Positions 617-36,279 of a stretch of 41,231 nt of DNA are shown one piece after another. Origin of the DNA: a virus. The stretch is from positions 1-41,231 of IMG/VR virus record IMGVR_UViG_3300034280_000763. One strand, 5' to 3'. The notes under the pieces are model-generated. The model saw nothing but the letters and a program-made list of their open reading frames with translations, searched no databases and was not told the origin of the DNA. The translations under genes were made by a program, and so were the position numbers. Every line of letters starts with the position of its first letter. The first letter of the stretch is position 1.

Positions 617-940
617 ATGAACAGATACCGACTAGTGCGATCCGAAAAGCGGACAATCTGGAGCGGGAGCGGTGGCTCGATTCACCTCGAGAACCCGACC
701 ACCCTCGAGGAGGGAACACTCGCGGAGGTGATCGAGGCCGCGGTCGAGGAGGTGCGAGACACGCTCGAGTATGAAGTCGAGAGCGGCGACCTGCCCCGGG
801 CGGACCTGCCGAGGCCGGACAGTCTCCGGCGCTACCTAGGCCGGGAGATAGTCCGGATGGCGGGCGGCGATACCTACCCCCTGCCGCTGGACTCCGAGGG
901 ATTCTGGTGCCTGACGGTCGAGGAGGTGGAGAGCAACTAA
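617..940 (+). CDS. Hypothetical early protein, 107 aa
   Basis: The ATG at 617 follows an AGGAGAACAG ribosome site. The product starts MNRYRLVRSEKRT, has an acidic middle (TLAEVIEAAVEEVRDTLE, a likely helix) and ends EEVESN. No family is recognised. The stop TAA lies inside a copy of the dispersed motif AACTAAGACAA, and the gene is followed directly by the first tRNA-arm-like intergenic element. It sits second after the genome join in the rightward small-gene operon. Confidence 0.75.
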   Translation: MNRYRLVRSEKRTIWSGSGGSIHLENPTTLEEGTLAEVIEAAVEEVRDTLEYEVESGDLPRADLPRPDSLRRYLGREIVRMAGGDTYPLPLDSEGFWCLTVEEVESN

Positions 941-951: not shown

Positions 952-1014
952 GGGGCGGTGGTTCCCCTGCTCGAGGTTCGATCCCTCGAGGCCCCCTTCC
1001 CGCAATACCGCGGG
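952..1014 (+). ncRNA. tRNA acceptor/T-arm-like RNA module 1 plus hairpin
   Basis: The outer stem GGGGC (952-956) pairs with GCCCC (991-995). Inside are a 13-nt unpaired strand (957-969), a 7-bp stem CTCGAGG/CCTCGAG (970-976/984-990) and a canonical T-loop TTCGATC (977-983). The two stems abut with no spacer, giving 12 stacked bp as in a tRNA acceptor/T-arm. A second hairpin follows, CCCGC-AATACC-GCGGG (999-1014), and then the shared leader. Module 3 keeps the inner 35 nt identical while both outer stems change with compensation, which supports a folded RNA. There is no anticodon arm and no CCA end, so it is not a tRNA. The role is unknown; processing or attenuation are candidates. Confidence 0.65.
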
Positions 1015-1033
1015 AGTCAATCCGAAACAGGAG
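1015..1033 (+). promoter_or_regulatory. Shared early leader, copy A (ribosome-binding leader)
   Basis: AGTCAATCCGAAACAGGAG precedes the 1045 gene. Related leaders stand at 1828, 2866, 3466 and 40195. The element ends in the Shine-Dalgarno core. No promoter is evident just upstream of this copy, only the RNA hairpin. Confidence 0.75.
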
Positions 1034-1045
1034 CAACTAAGACAA
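1031..1045 (+). repeat. 15-bp direct repeat, downstream copy
   Basis: Perfect copy of 931-945. It contains GGAG as the ribosome site, and its last base is the A of the start codon of the next gene. Confidence 0.9.
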
Positions 1046-1272
1046 TGACACGCAAGCACTACAGGCAACTAGCGGACACTCTGGGCCGGGCATACGCGGC
1101 CGGAGTCATGGCAGACAAGACCACCCCGGAGGGGGCCGGCCGATTCTTCGAGATACTCGAGGAGCTGGAGTCCTTCTGCCGGGCGGAGAACGCATCCTTC
1201 GACCGGACCCGGTTCCGGGAGGCGGTCGGCGTGGCGATCCGGGACGAGCAAGGCGAGGAGGTGGCGGCCTAA
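1045..1272 (+). CDS. Small conserved phage protein, MTRKHY type
   Basis: This 75-aa protein begins MTRKHYRQLADTL and has a FDRTRFREAVG segment near its end. The layout (Thr-Arg/Lys-Lys-x-Tyr start, central Glu-rich helix, FDRxRF end) resembles a short protein of unknown function common in actinobacterial and other phages. The ATG at 1045 is chosen because GGAG lies 9 nt upstream and the open frame further left runs through the structured intergenic element. Its TAA overlaps the next ATG (TAATG). Confidence 0.75.
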   Translation: MTRKHYRQLADTLGRAYAAGVMADKTTPEGAGRFFEILEELESFCRAENASFDRTRFREAVGVAIRDEQGEEVAA

Positions 1273-1850: not shown

Positions 1851-1856
1851 GTGAAA

Positions 1857-2792
1857 GTGTATGAAGGCTACGAGATAGAGACCCGAGGTGGGCTGGTCGC
1901 GCTCGAGTATTCCGAGCAGGACTGGGAGAACCCGCTCACCTGGTGGAGCATCAAGGAGCGGGGCAAGTGTGAGATGGCCTCGGTCCCGGGCGTGAGGTCC
2001 GGCGACCCCGGCGAGGTGACCTGCTCGAGGTGCGAGGGTAACGGAACCCTCGAGGCCACCGATGGGGAGGAGCCGGAGTGCCCCGACTGCGAAGGCTACG
2101 GGGTGCGGCCGGCCAAGAGCGAGGCGGAATGGTGCGCGGATCACGGCGCGGTAGCGGCTGTGCCCGTGTCCTACAACATGAACACCTCGCAACCGTGGAT
2201 TCAGACGGTCGATTGGGAGAACCTCGAGGATGCCGGTTCGATCCTCTACCTCGAGGAAGGCTACGGCCATACGACCGAGGTTATCGAGGCCCGGATCACG
2301 GACCTCTCTTTCGCTCTCGAGTATGGCTACTCGATAGTGACGGTCGGGGTAGACCCTGACTCGGACCTGCCCGAGGATGCGCTCGATGGATGGACGGGCG
2401 GCGGGGTTGGGATGATCCTGGGCCAGACCTCTATCAAGGAGGAGGCAGATCGGCAACTCGAGGATGCCACCGCATACCTGCGGGCAGAGATGGCCCGGAG
2501 GGAGGCGCTCGAGGCTCGAGGCGTGAAGGCTGGCGGCAGCCCGGAGGCGCGGCGAGTGACGCTCGACCGGGCAGACCTGCTCGAGGTTGCGCGGCACCTG
2601 GTGGCGGACCTCGAGAGTAGCGATCCCTACTGGACGCGGTGGGACGAGGAGGAGGACGGCGCGGACTCGGAGCGAGCGGCCCTCGTGCGGGCGGTCGAGT
2701 CGATCCGGACGGCGCTCGAGGAGGGAGGGAGCCTCAGGGTTCCGAGCGGGCCGGCCCTCGAGGTGCCCCCGCTCGAGGAGGTGACCAACTAA
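1857..2792 (+). CDS. Hypothetical early protein with DnaJ-type CxxCxGxG motifs
   Basis: This 311-aa acidic protein is the largest of the rightward arm. Around residues 56-80 it carries CSRCEGNG and CPDCEGYG, two CxxCxGxG repeats of the DnaJ zinc-domain type, probably binding one zinc ion. There is no J domain, so it is not a DnaJ. The remainder is helical and Glu-rich with many Leu-Glu pairs encoded by CTCGAG. The GTG at 1857 is chosen for Shine-Dalgarno spacing; the in-frame GTG at 1851 would add two residues. The TAA lies within an AACTAAGACAA motif. Function is unknown; nucleic-acid or protein binding through the zinc site is plausible. Confidence 0.75.
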   Translation: MYEGYEIETRGGLVALEYSEQDWENPLTWWSIKERGKCEMASVPGVRSGDPGEVTCSRCEGNGTLEATDGEEPECPDCEGYGVRPAKSEAEWCADHGAVAAVPVSYNMNTSQPWIQTVDWENLEDAGSILYLEEGYGHTTEVIEARITDLSFALEYGYSIVTVGVDPDSDLPEDALDGWTGGGVGMILGQTSIKEEADRQLEDATAYLRAEMARREALEARGVKAGGSPEARRVTLDRADLLEVARHLVADLESSDPYWTRWDEEEDGADSERAALVRAVESIRTALEEGGSLRVPSGPALEVPPLEEVTN

Positions 2793-2802: not shown

Positions 2803-2857
2803 GGGGCCTGCGGCACCTGGGCGGTTCGACTCCGCCCGGCCCCTTCCCCTTCGGGGG
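2803..2857 (+). ncRNA. tRNA acceptor/T-arm-like RNA module 2 plus UUCG hairpin
   Basis: The outer stem GGGGCC (2803-2808) pairs with GGCCCC (2838-2843). A 10-nt unpaired strand (2809-2818) is followed by a 6-bp stem GGGCGG/CCGCCC (2819-2824/2832-2837) with T-loop TTCGACT (2825-2831). The stacked stems again total 12 bp. A second hairpin CCCC-TTCG-GGGG (2846-2857) has a stable cUUCGg tetraloop. The sequence differs from modules 1 and 3 but the architecture is the same, followed by the same leader. Confidence 0.6.
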
Positions 2858-2895: not shown

Positions 2896-3387
2896 ATGGC
2901 AAAGGAACAATCGGGAGAGAGCGGGATGATCCCGGCAGGTGAGTATTGGGTGGGCGATCCGTGCTACTGCTTCACGGATCACAACCGCTGGATGGCGCTG
3001 CTCGAGTCGGCCGACTACATGGGCGACCATGCCATCCTCGAGGCGGAGGCGGGAGGCGCAATCTTCGTGGCCTCACGGACTGCCCACGGAGACGGGCGCT
3101 ACTCGGACCAACGAGGCAGGAGTTACCCGGTAGATGCCGGCCTGCTCGGTGTCGTCCCGGTCGGCATGGAGGAGGAGCCGGAGTCCTGGGCGCGCTCGAG
3201 AGACGAGCTGCTCGCTCGAGTGACCTTCGAGCAACCGTTCCGGATCACCTACGACTGGGGCACCGTTCAGATCGGCCACCTCGTGATCGAGACCGACAAC
3301 GAGGAGGACGAGGAGGACGAGGAGGAGTGCGAGGAGTGCGGCTGGCTGCTCGACGACTGTAACTGCGAGGAGGTGGTCCCTGCGTAA
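2896..3387 (+). CDS. Hypothetical protein with GDPCY motif and acidic Cys-rich tail
   Basis: The product is 163 aa. The N-terminal region reads GEYWVGDPCYCF, a glycine-Asp-Pro-Cys-Tyr motif I associate with small phage proteins of unknown function. The middle is a beta-rich fold. The C-terminal 30 residues are extremely acidic (runs of Glu/Asp encoded by a GAGGAGGAC repeat) and contain CEECGWLLDDCNCEE, four cysteines that could bind a metal. The ATG at 2896 is chosen because of AAAGGAAG upstream and because the longer frame would translate through RNA module 2. Confidence is high that it is a gene, low on function. Confidence 0.75.
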   Translation: MAKEQSGESGMIPAGEYWVGDPCYCFTDHNRWMALLESADYMGDHAILEAEAGGAIFVASRTAHGDGRYSDQRGRSYPVDAGLLGVVPVGMEEEPESWARSRDELLARVTFEQPFRITYDWGTVQIGHLVIETDNEEDEEDEEECEECGWLLDDCNCEEVVPA

Positions 3388-3394
3388 CCCTGCT

Positions 3395-3456
3395 GCCGGC
3401 GGTGGTTCCCCTGCTCGAGGTTCGATCCCTCGAGGCCGGCGTCCCCAATACCGGGG
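3395..3456 (+). ncRNA. tRNA acceptor/T-arm-like RNA module 3 plus hairpin
   Basis: The outer stem GCCGGC (3395-3400) pairs with GCCGGC (3435-3440). The inner part is identical to module 1: a 13-nt strand (3401-3413), a 7-bp stem (3414-3420/3428-3434) and T-loop TTCGATC (3421-3427). The second hairpin CCCC-AATACC-GGGG (3443-3456) keeps the loop of module 1 but changes the stem. Compensated changes in two helices with fixed loops are direct evidence of selection on RNA structure. Confidence 0.65.
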
Positions 3457-3465
3457 ATTAGTGAA

Positions 3466-3487: not shown

Positions 3488-3979
3488 GTGGCAACTAAGA
3501 CAATGACAACCGATACCTGGACGAGGAGCGAGGCTGCCGCGCTGTGGCTGCCGCGCATGGAGGCAGACCTCGAAGCGGTGTGGCGGGACAAGCCCCGTGA
3601 CCCAGGCTCCGGGGTGTTTCTCTCCGATGCGCTGCCGAGCGGGGCGCGGGTGGTGTTCGGGATCACGAGCCTTACCCCGATGGGGCGGAGGTGGTATGGC
3701 GTGGACTACAGAATCATGCTCGGCCACGACCTCGAGTTCCTCTACGCCACCATCGAGACCAGGCAAGTGACGACTGCCGGCAAGTGGGCCCAGGGGTGGG
3801 GATTCACCACCCCGGAGGTGACGGTCTACGGGCCCAGAGACTACGGGCGGGAGCGAGAACCGCACCTCTCGCTGAGTAGCGGCGACGCATACCCAGACAA
3901 CCTCGAGGTATTCCGCGGCCAGCTCGAGCTCGGGGAGATACTGCTCGACAGGCTCAGGCACGAGGGGGTGGAGGCATGA
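3488..3979 (+). CDS. Hypothetical early protein, 163 aa
   Basis: The GTG at 3488 has ideal spacing to AGGAGG; an in-frame ATG at 3503 lies 22 nt away and is less likely. The reading frame opens V-ATKTMTTD, where ATKT is encoded by the dispersed motif. The protein is a mixed alpha/beta chain with aromatic clusters (RRWYGVDYRIMLGHDLEFLY) and no motif I recognise. Its TGA overlaps the following ATG. Confidence 0.75.
   Translation: MATKTMTTDTWTRSEAAALWLPRMEADLEAVWRDKPRDPGSGVFLSDALPSGARVVFGITSLTPMGRRWYGVDYRIMLGHDLEFLYATIETRQVTTAGKWAQGWGFTTPEVTVYGPRDYGREREPHLSLSSGDAYPDNLEVFRGQLELGEILLDRLRHEGVEA
3493..3503 (+). repeat. Dispersed motif AACTAAGACAA
   Basis: Perfect copy inside the first codons of the 3488 gene, in the direction of transcription. 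Confidence 0.85.
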
Positions 3980-4767: not shown

Positions 4768-4961
4768 AGGAGACCATCCTCCGCCTGCGAGAGGCGGAGG
4801 AAGCAAGGCAGGCAGCGAGGCGCGACCAGGCGGCAGCGAGGCGCGAGGTTCAGCGGCTAATCAAACAGGCGAGAGAGGAGGGAATGACGGTGGTTGCGAT
4901 TGCGGAAGCCACCGGGATTAGCCGGGAGAATCTTCACCAGCTTCTAAGGCAGCCGTCCTAA
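4764..4961 (+). CDS. Small HTH DNA-binding protein
   Basis: The product is 65 aa. Residues 1-40 form a charged helix rich in Arg/Ala/Glu. The C-terminal part VVAIAEATGISRENLHQLLRQ is a clear helix-turn-helix of resolvase/sigma type (turn at TGIS). Last gene of the rightward operon. Its 3' end overlaps the end of the convergent leftward gene by 44 bp, so there is no room for a separate terminator. A regulator of the early arm is the obvious possibility. Confidence 0.75.
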   Translation: MKETILRLREAEEARQAARRDQAAARREVQRLIKQAREEGMTVVAIAEATGISRENLHQLLRQPS

Positions 4962-5481
4962 TCTCCTCCGCCTCGCCCTCGATCACGACTCCCTCCACCT
5001 GAACTCCCTTAGCGGCGAGGGCCCGGAAGATTTCCGGCAGCTCCCGCTTGTTCAGGTGGATGGAGGTCGGGTCGCCGTTGAGAAGGGCGGCCTTGTCTAC
5101 ATGGACTGCCCCGGCGATGGCGACATTCCTTAGTAGGGCGGCCTTGTCCTTCCCTGAAAGTTCGGCTATCTCCTGCTCGAGCTCGTCTATGGTCGAGTGT
5201 TCGAGGGCGGCGAGGCGCTCGGCCAGGTCCGTGTGCGTGTCGGCAAGGCGGGCCTTGATCTTGGGTGCTACCTCGGCGCGAATCTCGGCATAGCGATCCT
5301 TGTAGGTGTCCGGCCATCGGGCAAAGGTCGAGGCCGGCGGCACCCTGTCGAACAGCTTCAGCTCGACCAGGCGCTTCCGGGCCCGGCCCAGGTTTCCAGA
5401 CTCGAGGGCCAGGACTGTGAGAGCGGCCTCGATTTCCTCGGCCGTGTGCTTTGCGCGGGGGTGGGGAACGAGTGTGGTCAT
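4918..5481 (-). CDS. Putative terminase small subunit / HTH DNA-binding protein
   Basis: This 187-aa protein has an N-terminal HTH-like region (NLGRARKRLVELKLFDRVPPASTFARW). A helical middle contains LAERLAALEHSTIDELEQEIAEL, and then comes AALLRNVAIAGAVHVDKAALLNGDPTS. That last segment, with a conserved Asp-Lys and Gly-x-Pro-Thr/Ser, recalls small-terminase-like or HTH proteins of phages. If it is TerS it lies far from TerL (34792-36279), at the end of the leftward early operon. The start ATG at 5481 lacks a strong ribosome site. It could instead be a general regulatory HTH protein. Confidence 0.5.
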   Translation of the reverse strand: MTTLVPHPRAKHTAEEIEAALTVLALESGNLGRARKRLVELKLFDRVPPASTFARWPDTYKDRYAEIRAEVAPKIKARLADTHTDLAERLAALEHSTIDELEQEIAELSGKDKAALLRNVAIAGAVHVDKAALLNGDPTSIHLNKRELPEIFRALAAKGVQVEGVVIEGEAEEIRTAALEAGEDSPG

Positions 5482-6830: not shown

Positions 6831-7940
6831 TCAAATCCGAACAGCCTCCGAACGGGGGGCATATCCCCTGGCCTCCCGGATGTAGTCATCCTCGCCCCAT
6901 CCCTCTCGAGGATCATCGGCGTAAAGGTGCTGGTAGGTGCGAAGCGATACGAGGGGCGAGTGGCCGAGCTGCGCGGCTACCCATGTATGGGTGCGACCGG
7001 AGGCGATGAACAGACTGGCCGCCGTGTGGCGCAGGGCGTAGGGCGTCAAGTCCCACCCGAGCCCCACCTCCTGCGCTGCCTTCTTGAATGACTTCCCTTC
7101 CATGCGGCCGCGCCAGTTGTTGTATTGCCCCTTGCTCCAGGGCTGGCCCTTGCGGTTCGGCCAGATCAGGTCGGAGCCGCTCGAGGTCTGAGACTGCCAA
7201 CCTCTTAGGTCGGCCTTCACGGTGTCCGGCACGAACACCCGCCGCCGGTAGTTCTGCCCCGTCTTGGAGCCGGCCTCGATTACCCCGTTCACATTCTTTT
7301 TGTTCACGGCGAGCCTATCCCCGAGGTCATCCCAAGTCAGGGCAAGGGCGTCCTGTGGTCGGATACCCACATAGGCGAGGACGGAGACGAGGGTGGCGGA
7401 GCCGAGGTCTCCTCGCTCGAGATACCAACCGCGGATAGCTTCCACATCCCGGGCGTCTAGCCACCTGGTCTGCTTCCGCTTGCGAACCGGGGAGGGCAGG
7501 GCCCTTACTGGGTTCGCGTCGAGGTATTGCCAGGGCAGGACGGCGTGATCGAGCACCTGGCCGAGTAGCGTCTGTGCCTTAGAGAGGGCGGTCGGGCCCG
7601 CGCCCGCGTCGATCCTCGAGGTCTGCCACTCCATGAGCATCGGCGGAGTCAGCTCCGAGACCTTGCGGTATCCGAGGAACGGGTCGATGTGGGTGCGAAC
7701 CAGCTCGGCGTATCCCCTGGTGGTAGACGGTGCCAAGTCCTTCGTCCGCTCCCATACCGGGATGAAGTCTCGAAGCGTCGGCACCTGGTGGCGGGGGATG
7801 GGGCCATAGCCGAGACGCTCCACCTCGAACTGTGCCTCCTGAGCCTGTCGCCGGTCGGCGTAGGTCCGGCTGCGGTTCCGGTTTCCCTCTCGCCAACGGA
7901 GTTCCCACTTACCGCTGCTTGTCTGATGGATGCTTGCCAC
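6831..7940 (-). CDS. int: Tyrosine-family integrase
   Basis: This 369-aa site-specific recombinase would integrate and excise the phage at the adjacent tRNA-like core. The N-terminus (SSGKWELRWREGNRNRSRTY) is the arm-type DNA-binding domain. A SAM-like core-binding domain follows (residues about 60-150). The catalytic domain shows GIRPQDALAL (first Arg), R304 in YALRHTAAS, H327 in LGHS and the nucleophile Y336 in TYQHLY. The usual His three residues before R304 is Tyr, a variant I recall from actinophage integrases. The GTG start has AGGAGG 6 nt upstream. It lies directly downstream of the excisionase-like gene. Confidence 0.95.
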   Translation of the reverse strand: MASIHQTSSGKWELRWREGNRNRSRTYADRRQAQEAQFEVERLGYGPIPRHQVPTLRDFIPVWERTKDLAPSTTRGYAELVRTHIDPFLGYRKVSELTPPMLMEWQTSRIDAGAGPTALSKAQTLLGQVLDHAVLPWQYLDANPVRALPSPVRKRKQTRWLDARDVEAIRGWYLERGDLGSATLVSVLAYVGIRPQDALALTWDDLGDRLAVNKKNVNGVIEAGSKTGQNYRRRVFVPDTVKADLRGWQSQTSSGSDLIWPNRKGQPWSKGQYNNWRGRMEGKSFKKAAQEVGLGWDLTPYALRHTAASLFIASGRTHTWVAAQLGHSPLVSLRTYQHLYADDPREGWGEDDYIREARGYAPRSEAVRI

Positions 7941-10601: not shown

Positions 10602-11134
10602 TAGAAGGGAATGTCATCGAACGAGTCCCGCTTTGGGGCAGGCTCGTCGTTGTCCGTGTGTGGCGGCGGCTCCTCGGTCCTTCCCTCGGGGCTGAGGGTG
10701 ATTCCCTCCATGACCCGATTGAGGTAGAGGTTCTGATACTCGCGTCCATCGTTTCCCTTGCGGGTCTTGAGGACGACTTCGCACACCTTGTCGAGCGCCG
10801 TCTGGAGATTCGTCTCGAGTTCCTCGAGCGAGAAGGCGACCACACCGAGAGCCTCGAGGTGGCGCTTCGTCCACTTCAGGCGCTCGGGGTTCTCGAGCGG
10901 GTGGAATGTGGAGACCTTCCATCCCATGTTCGAGGGCCCCACAATCTCGAACTGAGTCCGGAGGGCGAGACCGCCCTTGCCATCGTGGAAGTCGAAGGAG
11001 TGAACCCTGGCCTGGTAGTCACCGTCCGGCGGGTTCTCCCACTCACGCTTCTCTTCTTTCGGCTCGTCGGCGTCGGCTGCCTTCCACGCGCTGTCCATCG
11101 CCTTGAGCCTTTCGGTCCTAGTATCCGGGGTCAC
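10601..11134 (-). CDS. Single-stranded DNA-binding protein, DUF669-like
   Basis: The product is 177 aa. NPPDGDYQARVHSFDFHDGK, followed by strands LALRTQFEIVGPSN and GWKVSTFHPLEN, matches the OB-fold-type DUF669 SSB-like family of phages. The C-terminal 30 residues are Pro/Asp-rich and end DSFDDIPF, the acidic SSB tip that binds partner proteins. It lies directly downstream of the Sak4-like recombinase, the usual SSB-Sak4 pairing in phage recombination modules. Confidence 0.8.
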   Translation of the reverse strand: MTPDTRTERLKAMDSAWKAADADEPKEEKREWENPPDGDYQARVHSFDFHDGKGGLALRTQFEIVGPSNMGWKVSTFHPLENPERLKWTKRHLEALGVVAFSLEELETNLQTALDKVCEVVLKTRKGNDGREYQNLYLNRVMEGITLSPEGRTEEPPPHTDNDEPAPKRDSFDDIPF

Positions 11135-11856
11135 TTGGTAGCCCCTCCCTTCTGCGGCTTGGCCGCGTCGGTGATTGCCTTCCTTACCGCCACCGCATCG
11201 AGCGGAAGCGGATCGGGCAGGGCCACTCGCCCGCCCGCGATGTATTCCTCTGCGGCGGCGGTTCTAAGAATCCGCTGCTCGCCCTCCTCGGTAGTCCTGA
11301 TGGGCTCGGCGTAGAGGATGTAGTCCACGAAGCCCTCGAGAAATGAGAAGGCCCGCTTGTCGAGAGTCGGGATGGTTCTCGTCCTGGTCCCCACTCGCGT
11401 CCTGAGTTCCGTTTCCTGCGCGTGGCTAATGAACCACACGCCCCGACCCAGGCCAGCCATCTTCCCGACACGAAGCCGGAACTCGTCGCGGGCAGACTGC
11501 CAACCCTTTCCCCACTCGGCATCGGCCAGGTGCGCTATCTCGAGCTGCTGGCAGACAGCATCGGCGCACATCCGATACAGCTCGTCCACCGTGTCGATGA
11601 CAACGATGGAGTGCTTGTCCGTCTCGGACAGCTCGGCACCCACCTTGCGGAATGTGTCCCACGAGTCGATCTCGACGGAGTAAGCGGACAGCCCCCCGAG
11701 CCCCGGCTCACACGCGAGGACTAGAACATCGTCCACGAGGTTCGCGGCTAGGGTCGTCTTTCCGATCTTCGGCTGACCGTAAAGGAGCACCTTCGCCTTC
11801 TCGAAGGTAAGGGTCGGCGGTGTTTTCTTAGTTGGTAGTAGCGTGGCTGTAGCCAT
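11131..11856 (-). CDS. Sak4-like RecA-fold single-strand annealing ATPase
   Basis: The product is 241 aa. Walker A is GQPKIGKTT (residues 27-35) and Walker B is HSIVVIDTVDEL (about 82-93). FISHAQETE and the following strands fit the RecA-like core of the phage Sak4/AAA_24 family, which pairs with SSB to anneal DNA. Stop and start overlap the SSB gene by ATGA. With the Cas4-like nuclease upstream it forms a compact recombination cassette. Confidence 0.85.
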   Translation of the reverse strand: MATATLLPTKKTPPTLTFEKAKVLLYGQPKIGKTTLAANLVDDVLVLACEPGLGGLSAYSVEIDSWDTFRKVGAELSETDKHSIVVIDTVDELYRMCADAVCQQLEIAHLADAEWGKGWQSARDEFRLRVGKMAGLGRGVWFISHAQETELRTRVGTRTRTIPTLDKRAFSFLEGFVDYILYAEPIRTTEEGEQRILRTAAAEEYIAGGRVALPDPLPLDAVAVRKAITDAAKPQKGGATK

Positions 11857-30513: not shown

Positions 30514-31728
30514 CTAGGCTGCCGGCGCGGTCAGGCTCAGGTTGGTGAGCTTGCCGTGGGCCGAACGCCTGTTGGTGGCCAGCTGGTTGTAATACTCCAG
30601 CGCTCCGACCAGGTTGGTCGATCCCTGCTTCCACTCGAGGATCGAACCACCATACTTCTGCGTGACCCAGTAGGGCTTGTCCGTTCTGACGCAGAAGAGG
30701 TGCTTCTTCGTGAGCATGAACCACTCATCGTCGGGCGTGTCGGGCTGGGCGTCGATCTTCATGCCCGACCAGGTTGCCCCGGTGTCGTTGCCGGCACCGA
30801 TGCCGGAGTCACCCGAGAACCGGGCCTGCGACTGAAGCAGCAGGTAGAAGAGCTGCTGCTGAAGCGGCGAGGTCAGGTTCCAGTCGGGACGACCGCCCCT
30901 CTGCTGGAAAATCTTCCTCTGAATGTTGAGGAGCTTCTCCAGAGACAGATCCTCGGCCGAAGCCGGGGAGTCGATGGCGAACGACTGCCACCTCTCATCA
31001 GTCAGGCCACCGAAGGCGCCCGTTCCGATGATGTTGTTCAGACCGTTCATCCCGTAGAAAGTGCTGCCGCTACGGGAGTTGGCGATGCTGATGTAGTGGG
31101 ACGAGGTGGTGGTCACGGCCGTAGCGACCGTGATCGTGTTGTTGTCCAGATCAACACCGGTGATGGTGTTGCTGGCAGACTGAGAATCTTCATCGGCGGT
31201 AGTGCCAATGTCGATGGTCAGGCCGGGGTAGAGATACCCGCGCTGAAGCGCCCAGGTGTCGCCAGAGGCGAGGTTCACCGTAGTTGAGCTGGAGGTGGTC
31301 GCACACCGCGCCAGGTTTCCGGTGCCGTCACCGAACGCCTGAGCTGCGACCTGGTGCCGGGTGTTCTCGATGGCACCTGTGACTTCGGAATCCATCGCAG
31401 ACGCGACAGCAAGCGGTCCCTCGGACGAGGTGATCGCGTTGGTGTCGAGCTGAACCTGGAACCAATGCCGGGTGTGGTTGAACTCCGCAACGCCAACCTT
31501 CTGGTTGTCGGCGGGGTTGAGGGCACTCGAGCCGGTGTCGGGAACGATGGTGTAACCGCCCGAACGGTCGAGGTGAACCGGGACTTTGGCAACTTTGCCA
31601 ACCCGATACTTCGAGGTTTTCTCGATCTGATCGAGAAGGAGGTTCTGGTCGTAGAACTGCTTTTCGAGCCTGTCCTGGGTCCAGACCTCCTTGAGAACAT
31701 CTGAGTAGGTGTCGATATCGACGGCCAT
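30514..31728 (-). CDS. Major capsid protein
   Basis: The product is 404 aa. MAVDIDTYSDVLKEVWTQDR and the following VGKVAKVPVHLDRSGGYTIV fit the N-arm and core of HK97-fold capsid proteins. The P-domain-like part includes NLTSPLQQQLFYLLLQSQAR. The Ser/Thr-rich insertion (residues about 145-215) may be an extra surface domain. It follows the scaffold gene and precedes the adaptor region. A GC-rich hairpin lies in the 60-bp gap downstream (30475-30500). Confidence 0.85.
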   Translation of the reverse strand: MAVDIDTYSDVLKEVWTQDRLEKQFYDQNLLLDQIEKTSKYRVGKVAKVPVHLDRSGGYTIVPDTGSSALNPADNQKVGVAEFNHTRHWFQVQLDTNAITSSEGPLAVASAMDSEVTGAIENTRHQVAAQAFGDGTGNLARCATTSSSTTVNLASGDTWALQRGYLYPGLTIDIGTTADEDSQSASNTITGVDLDNNTITVATAVTTTSSHYISIANSRSGSTFYGMNGLNNIIGTGAFGGLTDERWQSFAIDSPASAEDLSLEKLLNIQRKIFQQRGGRPDWNLTSPLQQQLFYLLLQSQARFSGDSGIGAGNDTGATWSGMKIDAQPDTPDDEWFMLTKKHLFCVRTDKPYWVTQKYGGSILEWKQGSTNLVGALEYYNQLATNRRSAHGKLTNLSLTAPAA

Positions 31729-32553: not shown

Positions 32554-34542
32554 CTAAGATGGGAGGGCGGGGAGCGAGGACTGCGGCGTTCCCATATCGG
32601 GCTTTGCCGCGTTCATCATGCCCTGAGACATGGCTTCTTCCGCCTGAAGTTGTTTTGCTCTCTCGGCCTGTCGAGTCTCAATCTCAACCAGGGCAGAGAA
32701 GTAAAGGAGGGAGGCTTCCTTGTATTCCGCTGGGAGGTTGTCCCATCCGTCCGTCTTGAACCAGTCCGAGAATACGGCCTTGTGGACGGCCACATTGTCC
32801 ACCATTTCGCGGGGCATCCATCCCGGAACCTGAGTAAGCGGTTGGCCGGTGTCGGGGTCCATCGCTTCCTCGCCGGGGAACACCGGGCGGGGCGGCTCCT
32901 TCAGGAACTCGCCCGATCTGATCTTGCCGATAATCAGGTTGGCCCTGGCTATGTCGAGTTCGTAGGACTCGACCAGCTTTTCGGCGGTTCCGCCGTCAAT
33001 AGCCGCCATCGCCGCCTCAGGGCTCACCCATCCGAGCTGCGCGTAGTTCATCACCCGCTGCTCGATGGCCTGCCTGGTGCGAGGCTCGAGGGAGCCGGGG
33101 GCCACCCTCACATCGGTCTGATTGCGAAGGTTTATTCCCATGAAGTCCTGAATGGACTCCCAACCCGTCCTACCCCGGAACTGAATGATGCGCGGCTCGG
33201 TGTAGTGGCGCTGAACTAGGGTCAGGCAATCCCGCATCACGGCGGAGTGCCAGTCCGCGAGCTTCACGATGAAGTTGCCCCAGGCGAGGCGGTCGCGCTC
33301 GAGGAGCGCCTGAATCCCCTTGCCCGACTCCACCTGCGAGGGAACCTGGTTGTCTGAAGAAATGAAGCCCATGAGCCGCTCCATACGGTCGGCAAGGGCG
33401 AACAGCTCGGAAGGTATCGGCGGGACTGGCCTCCACTTCGGCTCATGGCCGACAATGGGGTTGTAATAGACCACGCTCCCCGGCTCGTCGGAGGGCCGGG
33501 TGCGGCTATCTAGCGAGCCTACGGGAGCGAGAATCTGCGGCGAGAGGGCGACATTCTTCCACTCGGAAACCTTGTTGAGAGCGTCGTTGAAGGTCCGCAT
33601 CGGCTCGATCAGTTGCCGCACGAGTCCCTGATCGCGGTCAGAATCGGGACTAATCATGTAGGACAGACGGTGAATACAGGGGGCATCCACGGTGTTTCCC
33701 TGCGAGTCCTTCAGCGGGTATTCACCTTCGGGGAACGCGAGCTTGCCGTTAGCAATCGTCAGCCATCGTCCGTTCGGATACTCCGGGGTCGGACGCTCGA
33801 GGTAGTCGGTAACGACGACCATCTGCGAGGGCTCGGTCTTTTCACCGCGCCAGTCAATCTCGGCATCGGGGGTGAGCTTGATCCCCAGGAAGCCCTCTTC
33901 GTTTTTCACGGAGTCAATGGGGCGGGCGTGTTGGATCACATAGAACGGGGAGTCATCGAACTGACACCCAGGCTCCCACGAGACTTCAGGTGCGCCGTAG
34001 ACCTTGACTCTCACATCGCCCACGCCGATCACTCCCTGTTCGGTTTCCACGAAGGGCCCGACGCCGGAATCCCAATACGGGAAGGCAAAGGCTTCTCCGC
34101 AGGCGAGTGCGTAGTAGACGGCGGTTTCGGTAGCCCTTCTAAGACTCCAGGACTCATAGCCGGCCAGGGCGATCTTCTCCGCGAGCTTGGCTCCGGATAT
34201 GTCCTCTGAGTCCGTGGTGGACGGGACTACTTCGTAGCCCGGGACGCGCTGAGTGGCGGCGCTAATCTTGCCGTCGAGGATTGCGAAGATGAGGTTGCGG
34301 GACTGACGAACCCTCCACTTGGGCTTACCCTTGCCATCGTAGGATTCCTTGGTGGCCTGGTGGGTGAGCTTGTTCCGGGAGTTGATGTAGGCGTAGTGGT
34401 TGCCTCGAGCGAACTCGAGGGCTTCCTTCCACTCGGGAGTGAGGTCGTCTGCCTGCTGCCGGGATCGCCTGATTCGGTCCATGACGGACTTCTCGGGGGC
34501 CGAGGGCCCGGTCAGCTTGTCGATAAGGCTAGTTTCTGCCAT
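32554..34542 (-). CDS. Portal protein
   Basis: The product is 662 aa. The N-terminal DKLTGPSAPEKSVMDRIRRS and WKEALEFARGNHYAYINSRN fit the wing start of P22-like portals. The middle has QNLRNQTDVRVAPGSLEPR-like stem/crown residues and MAAIDGGTAEKLVESYELDI. The Gln-rich C-terminal tail (LQAEEAMSQGMMNAAKPDMG) resembles a crown or barrel end. It lies between the terminase block and the scaffold gene. Confidence 0.8.
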   Translation of the reverse strand: MAETSLIDKLTGPSAPEKSVMDRIRRSRQQADDLTPEWKEALEFARGNHYAYINSRNKLTHQATKESYDGKGKPKWRVRQSRNLIFAILDGKISAATQRVPGYEVVPSTTDSEDISGAKLAEKIALAGYESWSLRRATETAVYYALACGEAFAFPYWDSGVGPFVETEQGVIGVGDVRVKVYGAPEVSWEPGCQFDDSPFYVIQHARPIDSVKNEEGFLGIKLTPDAEIDWRGEKTEPSQMVVVTDYLERPTPEYPNGRWLTIANGKLAFPEGEYPLKDSQGNTVDAPCIHRLSYMISPDSDRDQGLVRQLIEPMRTFNDALNKVSEWKNVALSPQILAPVGSLDSRTRPSDEPGSVVYYNPIVGHEPKWRPVPPIPSELFALADRMERLMGFISSDNQVPSQVESGKGIQALLERDRLAWGNFIVKLADWHSAVMRDCLTLVQRHYTEPRIIQFRGRTGWESIQDFMGINLRNQTDVRVAPGSLEPRTRQAIEQRVMNYAQLGWVSPEAAMAAIDGGTAEKLVESYELDIARANLIIGKIRSGEFLKEPPRPVFPGEEAMDPDTGQPLTQVPGWMPREMVDNVAVHKAVFSDWFKTDGWDNLPAEYKEASLLYFSALVEIETRQAERAKQLQAEEAMSQGMMNAAKPDMGTPQSSLPALPS

Positions 34543-34791: not shown

Positions 34792-36279
34792 TCAACTCAT
34801 TGACCCCATCGGCGCCGTGTCGGTCTCAAACGGTTCGTAGTCGGCGGGCGGGGCAGTCCCAGGAACCCATCGGCGGCGGCGCTCCTTCAGCTCCGGATGA
34901 ATCAGCGGGCGGCTCATAGCCACATACCTAAGGCAATCCATCGCGTGATCGTTCCGCTTGACCACCGCAAACTTTCCATCCGAACTAGGGGCAAGGCGGT
35001 AACGCTCGCGCTCCCAAAGAAGGTTCTGACAGTTCCGAGCCACGGTGAGCAAGCCCTTCTCGAGCCGTCGCTTCACCTCGAAGATTCCGGTTTCTACATC
35101 GTTCTGCGCCGGCACGACCGGGAGGCCGGCCTTCTGGAAGGCAGACTCGACCCGCTCGGCGTCGGTGAGGGATCGGTTCCGGGCTGCCGGGTCGATCAGG
35201 TAGAAGGCGTTCTTGACTCCCCACAGGCGTTCCTTCTTGCGAATCTCCGCGACGGTTCGCTCCGGCGTGTGGCCCTGGAGCAGGAGCTCGTCGTAAATGA
35301 GAAGGTGGTTGTCCTTGTCAAAGGCGGCGAACAACACGGCTGTCTTTGCGATCCCGGGGTCAATCACAATCTGGAAGGTCTGATCCCTTAGGTGGCTCTT
35401 CTCGACCGGATCGCACACATGACGGCTCGAGTCCCACTCCGAGTAGACGAGCCCTTGGAAGTGAACAAAGTTTCCTTCCTTACGGGCCGCCCGATACTCC
35501 TCGGGGATCGCGGCAAGGGCCGCCTTCTTGCCCTCCTCCGAAAGGTTGGGGTTGTCGTCCATATCCACTCGAACGACACACAGCCCCTCGTCCTGCCATA
35601 CATCCGGGGCTATCTCTGGGCCCTTGTTCTCCCAGAGTTCATCGAAAGTCCAGGTCAGGCCGAGAAGCGGGGTGAAAGTGAATACCTCGTCCCCGTTGTA
35701 GTCGGCAAGCCGCATATTACATTCCTGCCGAACTAGCTCGCCCTTCTCTCCGGGCGGCTCCTCGTCGTAATGGATGCGGTGACGGGCGGAGCCGCCGAAC
35801 TTATCGAGCTCCTGCTCATACGACATAAACTCGAAGAAACTCCCATTGGCAAAGCGAAGGATGCGCTGCGACTTTTCGTAGGCGGTATCCCATCCCCCGC
35901 CCTTGAGCTGAGACCTGGGGCACCAGCGGCGGATTGCCTCCTGGACGGCGATCATGGTCCGGGTGAAGTCGGGGGTAACGATTCGGCACTTGAAGGGGGC
36001 GTCCCACTTCTTGTAGGGCTTGAGGTGTTCCGGGATCGCGTCCGGGTCGATGGCCTGAATGATGTTGTCGCAGATGCCGCCGGTCGTCTTGCCGGAGCGG
36101 TTGCCTCCTAAGAAAACTTTGGTCCGGCCTCGGAAGGCGTGGAAGGGGCGCTGCTTCTCGTGAGGCATGTAGCCCTGGAGGGGGTTAGCCGCGAGTATTT
36201 CGTCGGCTTCGGCCAGTAGGCGCTTTACCTCTGGATCGTCCAGTAGAGCGGCGTCGGCGGAAACCTTGAGCTGGCTCAC
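34792..36279 (-). CDS. terL: Terminase large subunit
   Basis: The product is 495 aa. Walker A GGNRSGKTT (residues 58-66) and a Walker B-type HRIHYDEEPPGE define the ATPase packaging motor. The C-terminal nuclease contains FQIVIDPGIAKTAVLFAAFD with the first Asp and NDHAMDCLRY at the end. It cuts concatemers and drives DNA into the prohead. The GTG start overlaps the upstream stop (GTGA). Confidence 0.93.
   Translation of the reverse strand: MSQLKVSADAALLDDPEVKRLLAEADEILAANPLQGYMPHEKQRPFHAFRGRTKVFLGGNRSGKTTGGICDNIIQAIDPDAIPEHLKPYKKWDAPFKCRIVTPDFTRTMIAVQEAIRRWCPRSQLKGGGWDTAYEKSQRILRFANGSFFEFMSYEQELDKFGGSARHRIHYDEEPPGEKGELVRQECNMRLADYNGDEVFTFTPLLGLTWTFDELWENKGPEIAPDVWQDEGLCVVRVDMDDNPNLSEEGKKAALAAIPEEYRAARKEGNFVHFQGLVYSEWDSSRHVCDPVEKSHLRDQTFQIVIDPGIAKTAVLFAAFDKDNHLLIYDELLLQGHTPERTVAEIRKKERLWGVKNAFYLIDPAARNRSLTDAERVESAFQKAGLPVVPAQNDVETGIFEVKRRLEKGLLTVARNCQNLLWERERYRLAPSSDGKFAVVKRNDHAMDCLRYVAMSRPLIHPELKERRRRWVPGTAPPADYEPFETDTAPMGSMS

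Follow-up and report, generated by a model that had tools for sequence, protein, structure and literature searches.

T-element-like RNA modules between the early genes of tailed phages, putative sites of cleavage by host RNase P and/or RNase Z

The window, i.e. the whole 41,231-nt stretch of DNA analysed here (an IMG/VR record), belongs to a temperate tailed phage with genes for an integrase (6831-7940), Sak4 (11131-11856), capsid (30514-31728), portal (32554-34542) and terminase (34792-36279). Its first 5 kb form an operon of small genes on the + strand, in which three early spacers, each of ~100-115 nt, carry one RNA module each. Module 1 lies between an ORF for 107 residues without an assigned family (617..940, +), the stop of which is 11 nt 5' of the module, and an ORF for 75 residues (1045..1272, +), which begins 49 nt 3' of it and has a Shine-Dalgarno AGGAG at 1029-1033. 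A 313-residue ORF with a weak zinc-ribbon-like match (1851..2792, +) stops 10 nt 5' of module 2, and modules 2 and 3 flank a 163-residue ORF (phrog_20074; 2896..3387, +) that starts 52 nt 3' of module 2 and stops 6 nt 5' of module 3. An alternative ATG at 2797 would enclose module 2 in frame, but comparison with homologous spacers favours 2896 as the start. The early ORF after module 3 (3488..3979, +) starts at GTG 3488, 46 nt downstream of the module, or at ATG 3503.

Modules 1, 2 and 3, all three matched by a mechanical descriptor, span 952..995, 2803..2843 and 3394..3441, respectively, on the + strand. The outer helix of module 1 (952-956/991-995, GGGGC/GCCCC) is followed by a D-loop-like linker (957-969) and by a T-stem (970-976/984-990) bearing the T-loop TTCGATC (977-983). 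The corresponding elements of module 2 are the outer helix 2803-2808/2838-2843 (GGGCGG/CCGCCC), the linker 2809-2818, the T-stem 2819-2824/2832-2837 (GGGGCC/GGCCCC) and the T-loop 2825-2831; those of module 3 are the outer helix 3395-3400/3435-3440 (GCCGGC/GCCGGC), with an extra G-U pair 3394-3441, the linker 3401-3413, the T-stem 3414-3420/3428-3434 and the T-loop 3421-3427. In all three a T-loop of the form TTCGAYY is carried on a stem of 6-7 bp, with the outer helix stacked directly on it. A second hairpin follows each module on the + strand, i.e. TCCCGC-AATACC-GCGGGA (998..1015), CCCC-TTC-GGGG (2846..2856) and TCCCC-AATACC-GGGGA (3442..3457); those with the AATACC loop had already been recognised in a preliminary description of this DNA.

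The same description assigned to modules 1 and 3 an identical core of 35 nt; the identical run is in fact 40 nt (954-993 / 3398-3437), and because of this identity the two are a duplication. Its proposal that their outer helices differ with full compensation applies to two exchanged pairs (G952-C995 and G953-C994 for C3396-G3439 and C3397-G3438) but not to the inner three pairs, which are the same in both, module 3 having one pair more. Module 2 is an independent copy, with both stems wholly different and with the T-loop and a conserved GG retained. The descriptor, which demands a stem of 5 bp or more closed by the T-loop TTCRANY, an outer helix of 5 bp or more stacked directly on it, a linker of 6-24 nt and a total of at least 11 bp, matches the window exactly three times, compared with a mean of 0.01 matches in dinucleotide-shuffled windows (maximum 1, 200 shuffles) and 0.0005 in shuffles of the first 5 kb (+ strand). 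A caveat is that the T-stem of modules 1 and 3 consists of CTCGAG words, of which this genome has a huge excess; the evidence from relatives, described below, is independent of this. CTCGAG occurs 124 times in the window, with 53 occurrences within the first 5 kb, mostly as in-frame Leu-Glu codons of early genes; the counts are 82, 73, 72 and 48 in the module-bearing relatives G016, G017, G021 and G020, and 13 and 12 in the module-less relatives G014 and G030.

The single-sequence folding energies of the window modules are not remarkable (z -1.4 to +0.4), and their pair probabilities on whole-context folding are only moderate (0.39-0.87). At gathering score, Rfam yields nothing in the window or in its relatives, and ARAGORN detects no tRNA in the window or at nearly all of the module sites, the one ambiguous call being in L162. 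No CCA follows the outer helix of the modules, the next two bases in the window being CT, TT or TC, and there is no T-run 3' of any window module. The reported absence of an anticodon arm and of CCA is thus borne out, and the possibility that the modules are tRNA genes is rejected, there being no cloverleaf with an anticodon arm.

Other elements are present in the early region. A fourth early spacer (1772-1850) has no module, but a plain 15-bp hairpin (z -5.0), followed by an extended -10 like TGTGGTATAAT and then by a shared leader ACAGTCAATCCGAAACAGGAGG; it is possibly an internal promoter behind a terminator-like hairpin. A start-associated repeat, CAACTAAGACAATG (933-950, 1033-1050, 2785-2802, 2884-2901 and 3491-3508), surrounds early gene starts, also precedes modules 1 and 2, and is alike in concept to the SAS of cluster K phages. 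Searches of viral contigs with the early-region proteins, integrase and exonuclease of the window gave no relatives; phage records gave no match to its early region by megablast, or to that of a relative by BLASTN. A terminase scan of genome contigs was likewise negative, and the host of the phage remains unidentified.

Alignment of the terminase identified 68 relatives in viral contigs, in three of which the descriptor, applied blind to position, finds the module. Scanning of whole records gave two modules in G016, two in G017 and one in G021, with G020 having one with a T-stem mismatch. These modules are located in the early region, where they directly follow a stop codon, often a UAG with its G opening the outer helix, and are separated from the next start by ~35 nt. 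G016, G017 and G021 lack the second hairpin. No module was found in the records scanned for G014 and G030 (terminases 50% and 38% identical), so that phages of this group can do without the element. T-loop elements of another type, in which the linker is longer (e.g. CCTGTGAGCAACTCGGGAG), were observed in three relatives, at L121 6081-6126 (+), L123 ~18809 (-) and L127 ~14797 (-), in each case 5' of a homologue of window gene 4918-5481.

The preliminary description had also proposed a covariance-model search, and homologues with extensive compensatory change have indeed been found. A word scan, using GGTTCGATTCC preceded by TGGNNTTG with a spacing of N4-6, a word that demands no pairing, yielded 72 viral and 95 genome stretches. 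Both helices form at 24 of the 56 distinct word sites in viral contigs, against 0.57 expected (maximum 3) from 200 shuffles in which 3' sides were exchanged between sites, and at 13 of 90 sites in genome contigs, against 0.55 expected. Eighteen gap-free phage modules (set A5), from which a 39-nt covariance model, R2, was built, have a covariation score of 0.829, compared with 0.189 for shuffles and 0.10-0.16 for slid partners, and both sides have changed in 9 of 11 pairs. The pairing percentages for A5, and for the 19 actinophage modules considered below, are inflated, the members having been picked by a folding descriptor; the word-site folding test is the control that is free of this selection bias. 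R2 scores module 2 at 41 bits (E 5.6e-9), a value that is not independent as module 2 belongs to the training set, and the covariance-model E-values are in general rough. Matches in the tRNA-array phages L158, L176 and L195 were left out as real tRNAs, as were those in G032 and the jumbo phage L005. Plasmids gave no close copy of the consensus used. Modules were also observed in bacterial genome contigs, at L225 399-437, L275 261-299, L276 5687-5725, L292 2947-2989 and L302 5138-5176 and 3430-3473; these contigs (Eubacteriaceae, Eubacteriales MAGs and others) are possibly prophages.

Cultured actinophages are also detected by the 39-nt covariance model. BLASTN of the module consensus against phage records gave 844 places in 220 records, by far the most being of Streptomyces phages (113 records), with 30 of Mycobacterium phages; among the matches listed (60 rows), all are outside annotated features and there are mostly 4-9 places per record. 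Some lower-ranking records, e.g. Klebsiella, may represent ordinary tRNAs. In Mycobacterium phage Send513 all 10 of the early same-strand spacers that are 60 nt or longer contain a module, for the most part 8-15 nt behind the stop and 39-47 nt ahead of the next start. Modules occupy 7 of 9 spacers in Joe and 6 of 8 in Konstantine, and none of the three phages has an antisense module. Placement is similar in Predator and Yosif, and Konstantine, Predator and many Streptomyces phages have 3-9 modules each, all unannotated. The 19 modules from Send513, Joe and Konstantine have a covariation score of 0.813, against 0.173 when shuffled. No modules were found in phiC31 or lambda. In Predator gp49 (L359 6169-6627) and Yosif gp67 (L360 13402-13956) a module lies inside the annotated 5' end; both starts have probably been called too early, with the real starts lying further downstream. 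In Corynebacterium phage PSonyx a module (L355 ~2996-3035) is directly upstream of a gene for an RtcB-like RNA ligase. The initial impression of an isolated element thus does not hold, since it is widespread in actinophages and has archaeal and mitochondrial counterparts. We did not find the phage element described in the open-access literature; an earlier description elsewhere is not excluded.

The summed length of the two helices in 63 distinct modules, measured with up to 8+8 bp permitted, is 11 bp in 35, 12 bp in 16, 13 bp in nine and 14 bp in three, while the split between T-stem and outer helix slides from 5+7 to 8+4. The summed length is thus maintained, as in the acceptor/T rod of tRNA (7+5=12), consistent with the early observation that the abutting stems come close to the 12 bp of a tRNA, though many stacks have 11 bp rather than 12. 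RNase P uses the length of this rod as a ruler. A GG is present in the linker of 63 of 63 modules, compared with 44 expected after shuffling; some of the modules had been selected for TGG, but the GG is also kept in those found without this word. In actinophages it usually stands in a D-loop-like context, e.g. ACUGGCAGA. Of 41 actinophage modules, 38 begin with a G-C pair and 40 have R-C as the two bases directly 3' of the helix, both being features that RNase P favours in pre-tRNA. The window modules differ in this respect, having no R-C after the helix. A contact of RNase P with the RCCA of pre-tRNA has been described (PMC11143913). A second hairpin is present no more than 14 nt downstream in 30 of the 63 modules, against 5.3 expected, and is missing in the other 33. 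With respect to placement, the modules are strictly intercistronic and on the sense strand. The upstream stop codon usually lies no more than ~20 nt 5' of the module or includes its first base, and the next start, preceded by a Shine-Dalgarno sequence, is usually 25-60 nt downstream.

We consider it probable that these modules are phage t-elements that punctuate the early mRNA through cuts made by host RNase P and/or RNase Z, with cleavage being an inference. The observations on which this proposal is based are a structure supported by covariation, conservation of the T-loop and GG, tRNA-ruler length, intercistronic sense placement and the match to an archaeal element; that transcripts run through the modules and are cut there, and the effect of this on gene dosage or mRNA stability, are inferred. 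In the absence of transcript data, the same applies to the identity of the cutting enzyme and to whether cutting raises or lowers expression. The modules have the acceptor-like helix on a T-arm, the canonical T-loop and the lack of a cloverleaf that are expected of a t-element, and share a profile (R2) with the archaeal one. They also border RNA that needs release from a longer transcript, co-transcription being inferred from gene order. The outer helix and T-stem would stack into an acceptor/T rod of ~12 bp under the canonical T-loop, with the 5' linker standing in for the D and anticodon arms and keeping the D-loop GG, which may pair with the T-loop to form the elbow. That the homologues covary, and that the stack length, T-loop and GG fit a tRNA elbow, supports the acceptor/T-arm mimicry suggested at the outset, as does the match to the archaeal element; that description had also inferred a tRNA-reading factor such as RNase P, whose action on the modules likewise remains an inference here. 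Host RNase P would cut at the 5' end of the outer helix, in the window at 951/952, 2802/2803 and 3394/3395, and host RNase Z at its 3' end, predicted as one base after 995, 2843 and 3440. The message would thereby be divided into its cistrons. A cut at the 5' border would fall at or shortly behind the stop codon of the preceding gene, and one at the 3' border would leave the ribosome-binding site of the following gene on a leader of ~25-60 nt; in many copies the second hairpin may cap the new 5' end of the downstream mRNA. Against the t-element proposal are the lack of CCA, the lack of R-C in the window, the 11-bp stacks, the moderate pair probabilities and unremarkable energies, the absence of modules in G014 and G030, and the unknown set of RNase P and RNase Z in the window host.

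The occurrence of two adjacent hairpins in many spacers (in the window, Predator and Konstantine), and the location of copies in early operons, could also point to an antitermination or transcription-regulatory RNA, in which module and second hairpin act on RNA polymerase for read-through of the early operon in the manner of the put sites of phage HK022, a promoter-proximal two-hairpin RNA that modifies RNA polymerase. We regard this as unlikely, because it leaves unexplained the canonical T-loop, the D-loop-like GG, the tRNA-ruler length and the archaeal t-element match, because one copy per spacer right after each stop is not the expected promoter-proximal position, and because 33 of 63 copies have no second hairpin. 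Neither the T-loop sequence nor a conserved unpaired GG would be needed if the modules were intercistronic terminators or attenuators, or simple hairpins protecting mRNA 3' ends, for which we see very little room: they are GC-rich hairpins between genes, and hairpins do stabilise messages, but no window module is followed by a T-run and ten terminators in succession would silence the Send513 operon.

An RNA decoy, in which the modules do not mark cut sites but bind and tie up host factors that act on tRNA (RNase P, T-arm modifying enzymes, the CCA enzyme or elbow-reading defence proteins), would be in keeping with the retention of elbow features and the many copies per genome (among the matches listed, mostly 4-9 places per actinophage record). 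Such a role would not require the exact once-per-spacer position between stop and next start, and anticodon nucleases cannot be decoyed without an anticodon arm, such that we think it very improbable. Degenerate tRNA genes or att-like recombination repeats, without RNA function, are barely tenable. The T-arm and acceptor regions of tRNAs often serve as att sites, and modules 1 and 3 are near-identical repeats; decay or DNA-level homology is, however, contradicted by the compensatory changes in both helices and the pairing kept in homologues, by the several copies per operon in a single orientation, and by an anatomy common to unrelated phages and archaea. A DNA operator was rejected, as the stem sequences differ between copies with pairing kept.

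Extending the t-element proposal, tailed phages of actinobacteria and other hosts may have evolved a mitochondria-like tRNA punctuation of mRNA, together with a switch-off that removes stop codons, a hypothesis to which we give an even chance. With a tRNA mimic that lacks an anticodon behind almost every early gene, the operon could be divided into single messages by the tRNA maturation enzymes of the host and, where the first base of the module is the last base of the stop, the cut at the helix would remove the stop, leaving an upstream message that is directed to ribosome rescue as a built-in switch-off. If the t-element assignment is correct, an RNA processing signal of haloarchaea and plant mitochondria is also standard in phage early operons, the regular ~90-nt spacers of actinophage early operons are explained, and phage gene expression is tied to host tRNA maturation. 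Misplaced gene starts could then be corrected, and a ready-made processing part would be available for bacterial synthetic operons.

With respect to known systems, the best weak Rfam match of module 3 is mascRNA-menRNA (RF01684; 17.6 bits, gathering score 42.5), a tRNA-like element that RNase P and RNase Z release from a longer RNA; it is an animal nuclear RNA, and the likeness is by analogy only. Closer in architecture, hairpins of acceptor stem and T-arm (AT1, pMini) are RNase P model substrates that are cut at the canonical site (PMC11143913). They share with the phage modules the minimal acceptor and T-stem rod with T-loop, but are laboratory constructs with a 3' CCA, whereas the modules lack CCA and have a D-loop-like linker. 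Phage transcripts handled by host RNase P include C4 antisense RNA and M3 RNA (PMC11143913; the latter is not our module 3); these are single RNAs, unlike a repeated operon punctuation. The SAS/ESAS of cluster K mycobacteriophages (PMC3203893) resemble the modules in being repeated elements that contain inverted repeats and lie a short distance 5' of early gene starts; ESAS differ in being 17-bp imperfect repeats, conserved in sequence and joined to the start-associated sequence, and identity of the module with ESAS is rejected, as the ESAS phage TM4 has no module by descriptor or model in its right part (25000-52797).

The t-element itself is known from haloarchaea and plant mitochondria, the new aspect being the copies in phage early operons, which are unannotated in many Streptomyces and Mycobacterium phages. 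In plant mitochondria, t-elements are tRNA-like structures that mark intergenic cleavage sites of polycistronic mRNAs (PMC8003010); these are organellar, and are likened to the phage modules only as tRNA-like structures between genes. The phage-trained model R2 matches haloarchaeal contigs with E 1e-12 to 1e-6 and, in the contigs checked, the matches end 3 nt before the Rfam 5S rRNA; they are the t-element. T-elements are in general RNase P and tRNase Z substrates, and that of Haloferax is a tRNA-like structure upstream of 5S rRNA that is processed by tRNase Z (PMC4326828), an enzyme that acts on pre-5S rRNA (PMC3296008). The haloarchaeal t-element resembles the phage modules in its outer helix, GG linker, T-stem, T-loop TTCGATT and lack of an anticodon arm. 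It is, however, present as one copy before the 5S rRNA gene of an archaeon, whereas the phage modules, cleavage of which is inferred, occur in many copies that punctuate protein-coding early operons.
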